Shown here in pieces: positions 55,596 to 58,460 of a stretch of 64,000 bases of DNA. The notes under the pieces are model-generated. The model was not told the DNA's origin, did no database searches, and saw only the letters and a list, made by a program, of their open reading frames with translations. This stretch comes from Bacteroidales bacterium (GTDB lineage: Bacteria > Bacteroidota > Bacteroidia > Bacteroidales > WCHB1-69): NCBI GenBank assembly GCA_024686335.1, contig JAILCI010000054.1, forward strand, positions 1-64,000, given 5' to 3'. Numbering within the stretch: position 1 is the first letter of the stretch; each line of letters begins with the position of its first letter. A program made the position numbers and the translations under genes.

Positions 55596-55637
55596 ATGAA
55601 TTTATTGATATAAAGAGGATAGGAAACGGATGGGCAC

Positions 55638-55883
55638 GGGGATGGTTCTCCTAGCGGAGATCTGGGGAAAGAGAATGGGTAAATCATTGGGATAATTGAT
55701 CCCCGTAGTAATCACACGAAGACTCTTTTGAATAGATGCAAACGCTTTAACTCCACGAGTCCCTCTGGAATCTCGTAGAGATTCCATCCCTGTAGAAACC
55801 CGTGAGGCCCCCGATTCCTACCTACGAAGCACGGCAAAATCATACGGACTCACCAAGGAATCTCGTAGAGATTCCATCTCAAA
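55638..55883. repeat. Left repeat block of the transposase cluster
   Basis: About 245 bp, directly repeated at 56739-56984. It holds an inverted pair of one element: a degenerate form at 55644-55663 (GGTTCTCC with GGAGATCT) and a form at 55767-55785 (GGAATCTC-GTA-GAGATTCC). The second form is followed by ATCCCTGTAG. A second copy of that hairpin is at 55857-55875. Between the block and the transposase (55884-55981) only the transposase promoter is seen. Confidence 0.85.
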
Positions 55884-55949
55884 ACAATCGTCAAAATTAA
55901 CTATAAATTGTAAAAAGCGTTGATTATCAAAATGTTACAAATAATATAT

Positions 55950-55957
55950 TATTTTTG
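55950..55957 (+). promoter_or_regulatory. -7 box of the IS200-like transposase gene
   Basis: TATTTTTG followed by CTGCC, 24 bp upstream of ATG 55982. The host-type promoter suggests active transcription. Confidence 0.64.
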
Positions 55958-55981
55958 CTGCCTTATAATTTATTAACTACT

Positions 55982-56446
55982 ATGGCTAATGTTTACTCCC
56001 AACTCTACAATCATTTCGTAATCGTAGTACAGCATCGCGACTGTTTGATTCAACCCGAATGGCAAGAAGAATTGCACAAATATATGACTGGATGTGTAAC
56101 CAACCACAAGAAATGTAAATTGCTCAGCATTGGAGGAATAGCCGATCATGTTCATCTTTTTGTTGGAATGGGACCTGACATTTCTCCTACTGAACTCATT
56201 ACTGATGTCAAAAGAAGTGCCTCCTTATGGATTAATCAAAAATTCTACAGCCCAGGGGTGTTCTCCTGGCAAAAAGGATATGGAGTATTCAGCCATGCGC
56301 GGTCTACCTTGTCAACCGTGTGCAGGTACATTCAAAACCAAGCAGAACATCACAAGACAAAAACAATGCGAGAAGAATATATCCATATGCTGAAAAATGC
56401 GGGGGTAGAATATGACGAGCAATACATATTCAAAAACATATTTTAA
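55982..56446 (+). CDS. IS200-like HUH tyrosine transposase
   Basis: A 154-aa Y1 transposase (TnpA, IS200/IS605 superfamily). The HUH motif is HVH at residues 56-58 (IADHVHLFVGM). The nucleophilic Tyr116 is in RYIQNQAEHH. The family end DEQYIFKNIF is complete. ATG 55982 was chosen over 55955, which lies in the -7 box. TnpA proteins of this class act on single-stranded DNA hairpins, and REP-associated relatives (RAYTs) do not carry terminal inverted repeats. It is flanked on both sides by palindromes, and its stop codon opens the 56442-56594 repeat. Domesticated or mobile status is undecided. Confidence 0.88.
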   Translation: MANVYSQLYNHFVIVVQHRDCLIQPEWQEELHKYMTGCVTNHKKCKLLSIGGIADHVHLFVGMGPDISPTELITDVKRSASLWINQKFYSPGVFSWQKGYGVFSHARSTLSTVCRYIQNQAEHHKTKTMREEYIHMLKNAGVEYDEQYIFKNIF

Positions 56447-56594
56447 TTCGTAGATGAATCCTCTACGAGGATAATCGGCGGATAGCAATAGGGAACGCGC
56501 GAGGCTACAGGGATGGATCTCCTAACGGAGATCCGGAGAAAAGAGTGTGGGAAAATCATCGGAATAATTGATTTTTCTAATAATCGCACGAAGA
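56442..56594. repeat. 153-bp direct repeat, copy 1
   Basis: Begins at the transposase stop and matches 56672-56824 at an offset of 230 bp with few differences. It includes a stem ATCCTC-TAC-GAGGAT (56458-56472). It also includes the leader CTACAGGGAT with hairpin GGATCTCC-TAAC-GGAGATCC (56515-56534). Confidence 0.88.
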
Positions 56595-56671
56595 CCCATT
56601 TAAATGCTAAAATGGATCTACGGGGATGGTTCTCCTAGCGGAGATCCAGGGAAAAATATACGAAAACGTCC

Positions 56672-56824
56672 TTTAATTCGTAGATGAATCCTCTACGAGG
56701 ATAATCGGCGGATAGCAATAGGGGACGCGCGAGGCTACAGGGATGGATCTCCTAACGGAGACCCGAAGAAAAGAGTGTGGGAAAATCATCGGAATAATTG
56801 ATTTTTCTAATAATCGCACGAAGA
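56672..56824. repeat. 153-bp direct repeat, copy 2
   Basis: Second copy, preceded by AATATACGAAAACGTCC. This resembles the end of the transposase coding sequence (CATATTCAAAAACATAT), so a degenerate 3' end of a second transposase copy may precede it. Its hairpin is GGATCTCC-TAAC-GGAGACCC (56745-56764), with one stem mismatch. Between the two copies is another hairpin, GGTTCTCC-TAGC-GGAGATCC (56628-56647). Confidence 0.85.
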
Positions 56825-56984
56825 TTCTTTTGAATAAATGCAAACGCTTTAACTCCGCGAGGCCCCTTGGAATCTCAGAGAGATTCCATCCCTGTAGAAA
56901 CCCGTGAGGCCCCCGATTTCTACCTACGAAGCACGGCAAAAGCACACGGACCCACCAAGGAATCTCGTAGAGATTCCATCTCAA
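56739..56984. repeat. Right repeat block of the transposase cluster
   Basis: Direct repeat of 55638-55883. It contains the inverted pair: CTACAGGGAT leader plus hairpin (56735-56764), then GGAATCTC-AGA-GAGATTCC (56869-56887) followed by ATCCCTGTAG. The hairpin GGAATCTC-GTA-GAGATTCC is again at 56959-56977. It overlaps the 153-bp repeat copy 2. Confidence 0.85.
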
Positions 56985-57063
56985 TCCCGAAAAAAATGTA
57001 TTTTCGCAGGTCACATGACGATAAATCTAATAAATTGTACAACATATACAAAATCAACAAATT

Positions 57064-58038: not shown

Positions 58039-58066
58039 AAACCCCGCAAGGAAAATTGCGGGGTTT
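58039..58066 (+). terminator. purC terminator
   Basis: Arms AAACCCCGCAA (58039-58049) and TTGCGGGGTTT (58056-58066), 6-base loop, then GTTTTTATG. It lies 27 bp past the stop. Confidence 0.9.
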
Positions 58067-58120
58067 GTTTTTATGTGTCATGCAATTCAAAAATGGGTTG
58101 AAAAGGAAATAAGACTTTGA

Positions 58121-58412
58121 CCCCGCAAAAAACTTGGATTTTTTATAATCTGCTGAATATAAATATTTTGCATTATTCTTCCGAAGAAAAAAAATGTATT
58201 AAGGGGTTCACCCCGCGAAAAACCTGAGTTTTTTATAATCAGCTGAATATGAATATTTTACCTTATCATTCCGAAGAAAAAAATATATTAAGGGTTTCAC
58301 CCCGAAAAAAACCTGAGTTTTTTATAATCAGCTGAATATGAATATTTTACCTTATTATTCGAAGAAAAAAAATTTATTAAGGGTTTCACCCCGAAAAAAA
58401 CTTGGATTTTTA
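58121..58412. repeat. 89/90-bp tandem repeat, three full units plus a partial
   Basis: Units start at CCCCG: 58121-58210, 58211-58299, 58300-58388, then a partial from 58389. Each has the order CCCCG, A-rich, TGAG or TGGA then TTTTTTATAATC, TGCTGAATAT or AGCTGAATAT, and ends GAAGAAAAA then TTAAGG. Units 2 and 3 are closest to each other. CCCCGCAA matches the purC terminator stem arm. The tract has no open frame and no known repeat family. Confidence 0.9.
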
Positions 58413-58460
58413 TAAACGTATGATTATCAAAGTATTAATTATGTACTGTTTATTTGTTTC

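Follow-up and report, generated by a model that had tools for sequence, protein, structure and literature searches.

We describe a locus within a 64,000-nucleotide (nt) stretch of a Bacteroidales genome (GCA_024686335.1, contig JAILCI010000054.1; hereafter the window, which is contig C40 of the host assembly G000), where a single gene for a Y1 HUH nuclease stands among short tagged palindromes. We consider it likely that this locus is a REPtron-like cassette, that is, a domesticated single-copy Y1 nuclease of TnpA_Y1 subclass 1.2 lying among its cognate single-strand substrates. The best reading is that the system behaves like a REPtron, in which repetitive extragenic palindromes (REPs) accompany a REP-associated tyrosine transposase (RAYT), while standing outside the RAYT families: a new variety, with a tag placed unlike that of GTAG REPs. 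Subclass 1.2, which is on record without a repeat partner, probably has one.

A preliminary description of the window had proposed a system of REPs and of their inverted pairs (REPINs) around an IS200-type transposase. The palindromes are present at the positions it gave (eight related ones and two further hairpins, TCGTAGATGAATCCTCTACGA; Table 1), and the two palindrome forms and both inverted pairs that it named are as described, with correct coordinates. Its statement that these are one element in two orientations with a shared leader is true of most, not all: the CTAC leader is found at five of the eight palindromes (CTACAGGGAT at four, CTACGGGGAT at 56618) and is missing at three, with gCACGGGGAT at 55644 and ATCTC in the leader's place at 55857 and 56959. 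Under a strict rule (YTAC 11-12 nt ahead of a perfect 7-bp hairpin, or YTAC-N7/8-hairpin) the window contains four elements, three of them at the Y1 locus. Given that dinucleotide shuffles of the window yield none in 18 of 20 cases and one in the other two, the window elements are not due to chance.

The element consists of an 11-nt leader, CTACAGnnATG, followed by a 7-bp hairpin with a loop that is mostly TAAC, TGAC or TAC. In 17 leader-hairpin elements from the window genome and from G010, G015 and G021 (three relatives that carry a 63-65% identical protein) the leader reads CTACAGnnAT or is a CTACGG or CTACAT variant, and the stems vary (GAATCTC, GATCTCC, GAACCTC, GAACCCC, GAAGCCC, CATCCCC and others). 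Among 12 rows with 4-nt loops, picked for near-perfect hairpins, five of the seven stem pairs change on both sides, with a covariation score of 0.42 that is matched by none of 500 shuffles. The stem letters change but the hairpin is kept, and the leader is kept as letters, which fits an element that is read as a folded single strand. The flank that had been taken for the CTAC/GTAG hallmark of REPs turns out differently: the tag is CTAC placed 11 nt ahead of the hairpin, not GTAG at its foot.

By its motifs (DHVH, WQ and YIQNQAEHH, the last fitting Y---Q--HH) and its length of 154 amino acids (aa), the protein is assigned to TnpA_Y1 subclass 1.2, for which the sections of Quentin et al. 2018 (PMC6006769) drawn on here give DH[IV]H, WQ, Y---Q--HH and about 148-150 aa. 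Y---Q--HH is kept in 17 of 17 aligned relatives and in most of a larger set (exceptions are, for example, L170, L173, L177 and L179). The suggestion of a RAYT partner has to be dropped: a classical RAYT (class 2) is ruled out by motif (YIQNQ, not Y---NP) and by profile, and the RAYT of Escherichia coli falls far off and is not recovered by the A3 profile at E<=0.01. Relatives by sequence in the PDB are IS200-type transposases (2xm3, 2a6m and others); we take 2a6m to be that of IS608 and 2xm3 that of ISDra2. A phage origin was ruled out, as viral contigs gave no relative and the matches in annotated phages, from six Nodularia phage records, are no better than 26%. The best plasmid match (48.7%) is on a Bernardetia plasmid.

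A tree was built from 55 rows: 46 collected subclass 1.2 proteins, seven labelled IS200 (five from plasmids and two from order relatives, one of these two on a long branch) and two of class 2. All seven IS200-labelled rows fall in one clade (100/100) with the window protein outside it; the latter clusters with the proteins from G010, G015 and G021 (100/100). The two class 2 rows (the E. coli RAYT and a subclass 2.6 protein) sit on very long branches beside two subclass 1.2 rows with weak support. With class 2 rows thus placed among those of subclass 1.2, the tree does not settle the class relations; on the choice between RAYTs and IS200 that had been left to such a tree, the protein does not group with the former and lies outside the clade of the latter.

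The class 1 protein (Y---Q) and its NCBIfam name, IS200/IS605, suggest an alternative, namely that the 1.37-kb cassette is one copy of an immobile IS200-like insertion sequence whose duplicated left and right ends are the hairpins. The cassette is also a discrete segment, missing from two relatives, and YTAC ahead of a hairpin resembles the TTAC site that precedes the left-end hairpin of IS608. Nonetheless, we regard this explanation as unlikely. The host assembly (2.74 Mb, 64 contigs, 99.85% complete) holds no second copy of the array and no near-identical Y1 gene: a protein search finds five Y1 genes, the other four of which are 30-41% identical to the window protein (low copy, diverged), and Pfam adds a sixth, partial match. 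The many identical copies that would have meant an ordinary IS200 are therefore not there, and an ordinary multi-copy IS200 is ruled out. One of the six Pfam matches lies in the window, so that the claim of a sole transposase stands for Y1, the kind that the scan covered. Moreover, dN/dS is 0.05-0.19 in four relative pairs with dS below 1, and the Y1 genes of relatives are under purifying selection. Such genes also stay in place between near relatives (G021/G010, G014/G006, G011/G001 and G008/G023), which again speaks against a transposon copy, as do the hairpins themselves: many stand on both sides of the gene, and in relatives they are scattered without it. The separate 100/100 clade of the IS200-labelled rows points the same way.

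The history of the site was followed through the neighbouring genes. The Y1 gene and the palindromes sit between two genes that we take to be plsC-like and purC-like (names from open reading frame (ORF) translations as read, with no search behind them). In G001 (C52) and G005 (C11) the aligned plsC-like and purC-like genes are separated by 104 nt, compared with 1439 nt in the window. Homology to this empty site stops near 55624 and resumes near 56991, bracketing the palindromes together with the gene, at a junction that is not clean (about 31 nt are without counterpart). The comparison of empty and occupied sites proposed earlier thus finds two relatives without the cassette, which count as one observation because they are letter-identical over the 190 nt compared. 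It follows that the cassette came to the window locus as a unit or was lost in the relatives. In G011 the same interval contains two other long ORFs, and the 63-65% Y1 relatives of G010, G015 and G021 are located elsewhere. No tnpB was recognised by eye in the ORF list adjoining the Y1 gene.

Dispersal of the element was analysed with R1, a covariance model run on 40 genomes, mostly metagenome assemblies (24 genus members and 16 order-level outgroups). R1 and a second model, R2, were built from perfect or near-perfect hairpins, so that pairing percentages on either are partly built in; the first pass scored up to 150 candidates per genome, and element counts are lower bounds. Each of the 24 genus genomes has from at least 3 to at least 55 R1 matches at E<=1, strong in most, and among the matches listed (down to E 5.3e-6) all are within the genus. 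The 16 outgroups give 0-4 matches, with a best E of 0.005. Element number differs between genomes with and without a close Y1 gene (Mann-Whitney p 0.044), a comparison to be read with the fact that R1 was built wholly from elements of the four genomes with such a gene.

From the listed R1 matches 60 sites were hand-picked, favouring pairs (L106 and L108 gave no element on scan). These include 17 units of two opposed elements with leaders inward and 122-131 nt between, and four units with leaders outward, as in the window. Most comparisons among the leaders-inward units of seven genomes (179-189 nt) give 72-97% similarity over the full length, and 84-87% is seen among three G018 units (196-207 nt) whose leaders point outward; L102a is like the others only at its ends, and the near-identical sites L121 and L136 hold direct pairs. 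Some pair units are not independent, since L109/L145 and L148/L154 are matching sites of two genomes; other similar units occur at unlinked sites. Many elements are inverted pairs that form repeats of 180-205 nt, and judged from their sequence and arrangement the paired units are REPIN-like. Of the REP/REPIN-like system first proposed, what stands is that tagged hairpins cluster at a single-copy Y1 gene, that they are dispersed and form inverted pairs in relatives, and that they are lineage-specific.

Clusters of such units were also seen: at L346 (G021:C18, 106000-118000) several CTACAG pair units lie within about 5 kb among other ORFs, with the Y1 matches of G021 on other contigs, and a cluster on G006:C70 resembles it. 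A second element family, CTACCGAGCTT with TCGTCCC/TGCCCC hairpins, occurs in G018, G019 and G014 (loci L120, L124, L125, L128, L134 and L023). It forms mixed arrays at some sites, with CTACAG elements 24-25 nt off, and its leader also adjoins the Y1 genes of L023, L024 and L035.

As to movement, no single-element insertion was caught, since the one tagged element common to G010 and G021 is occupied in both. An empty-site comparison of L149 with six genomes was uninformative, and for the G000:C14 site no relative has both flanks on one contig. Arrays do differ between near relatives: a stretch of 104 nt in G014, with two additional hairpin repeats, is missing from G006, a difference for which recombination between repeats accounts equally well as transposition, and G014 and G017 differ by 266 nt beside a common unit, present in one only.

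Beyond the genus, we analysed the 600-nt flanks of 80 named loci, the best 80 of 506 confirmed close subclass 1.2 relatives. They contain 90 GC-rich hairpins, where shuffles give 4.9, and an identical hairpin is repeated at 15 of the 80 loci (0 expected). When every 4-mer was scanned at offsets -21 to -4 from the hairpin foot (set 7 bp away from the loop) over 70 Y1 loci with hairpins, CTAC at -11 came out on top with 19 loci, tied with TACC at -10, which reads the same letters one position on, against a maximum of 12 at random positions. CTAC at -12 and TTAC at -11 are found at 4 and 6 loci, respectively. GTAG at -4, -5 and -6 is found at 0, 1 and 2 loci (GTGG was outside the count), which is not the placement of GTAG REPs. 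From 124 Y1 loci listed for the 4-mer scan and the strict rule, 120 were kept (the duplicates L158 and L159 were left out, and L036 and L165 gave no protein); among them are L238 and L239, both IS200-type, and several syntenic relatives. At 40 of the 120 there are 74 strict elements in total, against 0.4 elements expected.

It might be argued that nothing but proximity links the gene to the hairpins, which would form a small repeat family of their own (of terminators or RNA elements) accumulating in gene-poor spacers. Elements are indeed plentiful in genomes without a close gene and favour the gaps between ORFs: by a test with crude ORFs (near-duplicate sites L121 and L127 left out), 32 of 110 elements lie inside ORFs against 578 of 1160 random points. 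The count at Y1 loci given above, and the finding that Y1 genes from several clades have flanking arrays, each of which has a leader and stem of its own but keeps CTAC or TTAC at -11 or -12, make this explanation very improbable. In addition, the 6 nt behind each element show no common T-run, and Rfam gives seven weak matches at E<=1 between 55000 and 58500, none of which overlaps the array or rises above the gathering score. A known RNA family is accordingly ruled out as the identity of the array.

For 20 rows (18 from beyond the genus) the consensus is TTTTCTACCGATATT-TTGTCCC-TAAC-GGGACAA, and their stems covary (the rows were chosen for perfect hairpins). At E<=0.01, R2 finds from at least 1 to at least 43 elements in each of 12 genomes reached via the named loci; it finds 28 in G014, 18 in G018 and 3 in the window genome, and none in outgroups G025, G029 and G030. 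Genomes that gave the model no row are also reached (10 in G046, 29 in G051, 1 in G044 and the 18 of G018). These counts bear on a further alternative, in which the hairpins serve as a self-binding operator array that controls or shields the Y1 gene, with no role as mobile substrates. Nearly all copies in the window genome are at the gene, and elements occur both upstream and downstream of Y1 genes. In view of the copies and repeat units that lie dispersed in relatives, distant from Y1 genes, and of the 21-43 R2 matches in six other Bacteroidota or neighbouring genomes, we give this alternative hardly any credence.

Hairpins of other kinds also accompany Y1 genes. At L003, L004 and L005 (G000:C41, C44 and C8) each Y1 gene has hairpins of its own (GCGTGTCGAAGACACGC, CCCCGCACTCGCAGTGTGGGG and CAGGGGTGTGAACCCCTG, respectively), in which no CTAC tag was recognised by eye, and the Y1 locus on C36 of the window genome seems, again by eye, to carry CTACCGGTACC ahead of an imperfect hairpin. 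The Y1 genes of another clade (L045, L046, L047) have GCGTGCY hairpins that are nearer to canonical REPs; some GTAG overlap the hairpin foot by eye, and L047 seems to have GTAG at the foot.

Several observations weigh against a REPtron-like cassette. In the window genome further copies, whose absence was named beforehand as a reason to give up the proposal, are nearly missing: R1 gives eight matches at E<1e-3, six of which are at the Y1 locus and two elsewhere (C14:9593 and C36:26260), the exact window palindrome is found nowhere else in the genome, and dispersal becomes visible in relatives. Within the genus, the best R1 matches of G003, G007 and G022 (E 0.012, 0.45 and 0.015) are no better than the outgroup best. 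Element number tracks the gene poorly, as the four genomes with a Y1 match of at least 60% identity have 14, 24, 51 and 36 R1 matches, and G018, G019, G006 and G013, without such a match, still have 55, 35, 32 and 29. About 400 kb of G010 and G021 contain 1 and 2 strict elements, no more than shuffles (0-2). Moreover, 80 of the 120 Y1 loci are without a strict element, including all four other Y1 loci of the window genome; the R2 matches listed for G040 and G050 lie mostly at the Y1 locus itself; and no single branch of the tree separates the 46 subclass 1.2 rows from all others (2 changes are needed).

Table 1. Features of the Y1 locus (positions in the window; the palindrome column gives the hairpin within each element).
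Feature	Position	Strand	Palindrome	Remarks
Whole cassette	55625..56990	.		plsC-purC interval of two relatives is without the 1.37-kb cassette
REP-like element, decayed leader gCACGGGGATG + imperfect hairpin GGTTCTCC-TAGC-GGAGATCT	55635..55663	+	55644-55663	R1 E 5.5e-5
215-nt direct repeat flanking gene, left copy	55668..55882	+		right copy 56770-56984, 89%
REP-like element, CTACAGGGATG + hairpin GAATCTC-TAC-GAGATTC	55767..55795	-	55767-55785	R1 E 3.0e-5
Hairpin GGAATCTC-GTA-GAGATTCC, without CTAC leader	55857..55875	-	55857-55875	
Y1 HUH nuclease gene, 154 aa	55982..56443	+		Pfam Y1_Tnp (PF01797) E 5.5e-24; NCBIfam IS200 (NF033573, IS200/IS605) E 5.5e-19; motifs DHVH / WQ / YIQNQAEHH
180-nt repeat unit	56426..56605	+		second copy 56656-56835, 93%
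Hairpin TCGTAGATGAATCCTCTACGA, first copy	56448..56468	.	56448-56468	
REP-like element, CTACAGGGATG + perfect hairpin GATCTCC-TAAC-GGAGATC	56505..56534	+	56515-56534	R1 E 2.2e-9
REP-like element, CTACGGGGATG + hairpin GTTCTCC-TAGC-GGAGATC, one mismatch	56618..56648	+	56628-56648	R1 E 8.8e-8
Hairpin TCGTAGATGAATCCTCTACGA, second copy	56678..56698	.	56678-56698	
REP-like element, CTACAGGGATG + hairpin GATCTCC-TAAC-GGAGACC, one mismatch	56735..56764	+	56745-56764	R1 E 1.0e-6
REP-like element, CTACAGGGATG + hairpin GAATCTC-TCT-GAGATTC	56869..56897	-	56869-56887	R1 E 1.5e-4; inverted partner of 56735-56764
Hairpin GGAATCTC-GTA-GAGATTCC, without CTAC leader	56959..56977	-	56959-56977	

Two other repeats were noticed in the window genome. 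At L060 (G000:C14, 9669-9838) there is a second dispersed repeat, without a tagged hairpin and rich in ATCTGCG, whose matches of about 40-180 nt are 81-96% alike and which recurs at some 21 further places (C14, C12, C52, C55, C11, C61, C6, C38 and C4). Downstream of the purC-like gene, a repeat 'ttcaccccg...aaacctgagttttttataatcagctgaatatgaatatttt' is present by eye in 3-4 copies at 58040-58420 of the window.

Comparison with known systems shows where the locus stands. With REPtrons and REPINs served by TnpA_REP (RAYT; class 2, Bertels groups 2 and 3) it shares a single-copy Y1 HUH gene, flanking palindromes with a tetranucleotide tag, lineage-specific stems, inverted pairs and dispersed copies, as well as several enzymes per genome, each with its own palindromes. 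It differs in the protein (Y---Q--HH against Y---NP) and in the tag, which here is CTAC 11 nt ahead of the hairpin and there GT[AG]G 0-2 nt ahead. The concentration of repeats beside the gene resembles that of two Marinomonas REPtrons, where it is read as recent arrival in the sections of PMC8266576 used here. From IS200/IS605 elements (IS608, ISDra2; subclass 1.1), with which it shares a sequence relation to solved transposases and the presence of hairpins, the locus is set apart by the lack of near-identical copies, by many hairpins instead of two ends, by purifying selection and by a protein outside the IS200 clade of the tree.

In the sections of PMC6006769 consulted, typical REPs are found beside class 2 enzymes only, and atypical structures are given for subclass 2.6 and class 3. 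Subclass 1.2 is described there much as found here (about 150 aa, DH[IV]H, WQ, Y---Q--HH, low copy, diverged paralogues, Bacteroidetes) and as generally without IS200 end structures. Its tabulated entry for REPs is 'no', whereas tagged hairpins are found here at a third of the loci. The automatic REP search of that survey required GT[AG]G at most 2 nt from the hairpin foot, which may be why subclass 1.2 was left without REPs in 2018. Subclass 2.6, to which 'atypical secondary structures' are ascribed in the same sections, is like the present system in its phylum (Bacteroidetes) and in its hairpins without GTAG, and unlike it in protein class (YIH[QN]NP, as in L261). Within open-licence PubMed Central, and as far as the sections drawn on extend, we found no earlier report of such repeats beyond PMC6006769, PMC3733652 and PMC8266576.

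From arrangement and comparison we infer that this enzyme serves this hairpin, and the following steps may be proposed for how it would bind, cleave and mobilise it. The hairpin would fold when its strand is single-stranded, for example as lagging-strand template, and the enzyme would bind stem and loop. Its tyrosine would then cut at the CTAC tag or close to it, or else at a position set by bases close to the hairpin foot, after which the ends would be rejoined. Over evolutionary time single elements and inverted pairs could be copied or moved into intergenic spaces, and the same activity could rearrange the array around the gene.

IS608 has a TTAC target site ahead of its left-end hairpin. 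A wider proposal, for which we see slightly less than even chances and which is put forward tentatively, is that the CTAC(-11) palindromes form a further REP superfamily of Bacteroidota and neighbouring phyla that is served by subclass 1.2, the tag being a relic of an IS608-like YTAC target; subclass 1.2 would then be an independent, second REPtron domestication, on the IS200 side of the family tree. Overall, the element (YTAC, 7-8 nt, a 7-bp hairpin and a short loop) is simple and falsifiable, and provides a candidate substrate for subclass 1.2 enzymes. If the proposed relationship is true, REPtrons would have arisen more than once from Y1 transposases.

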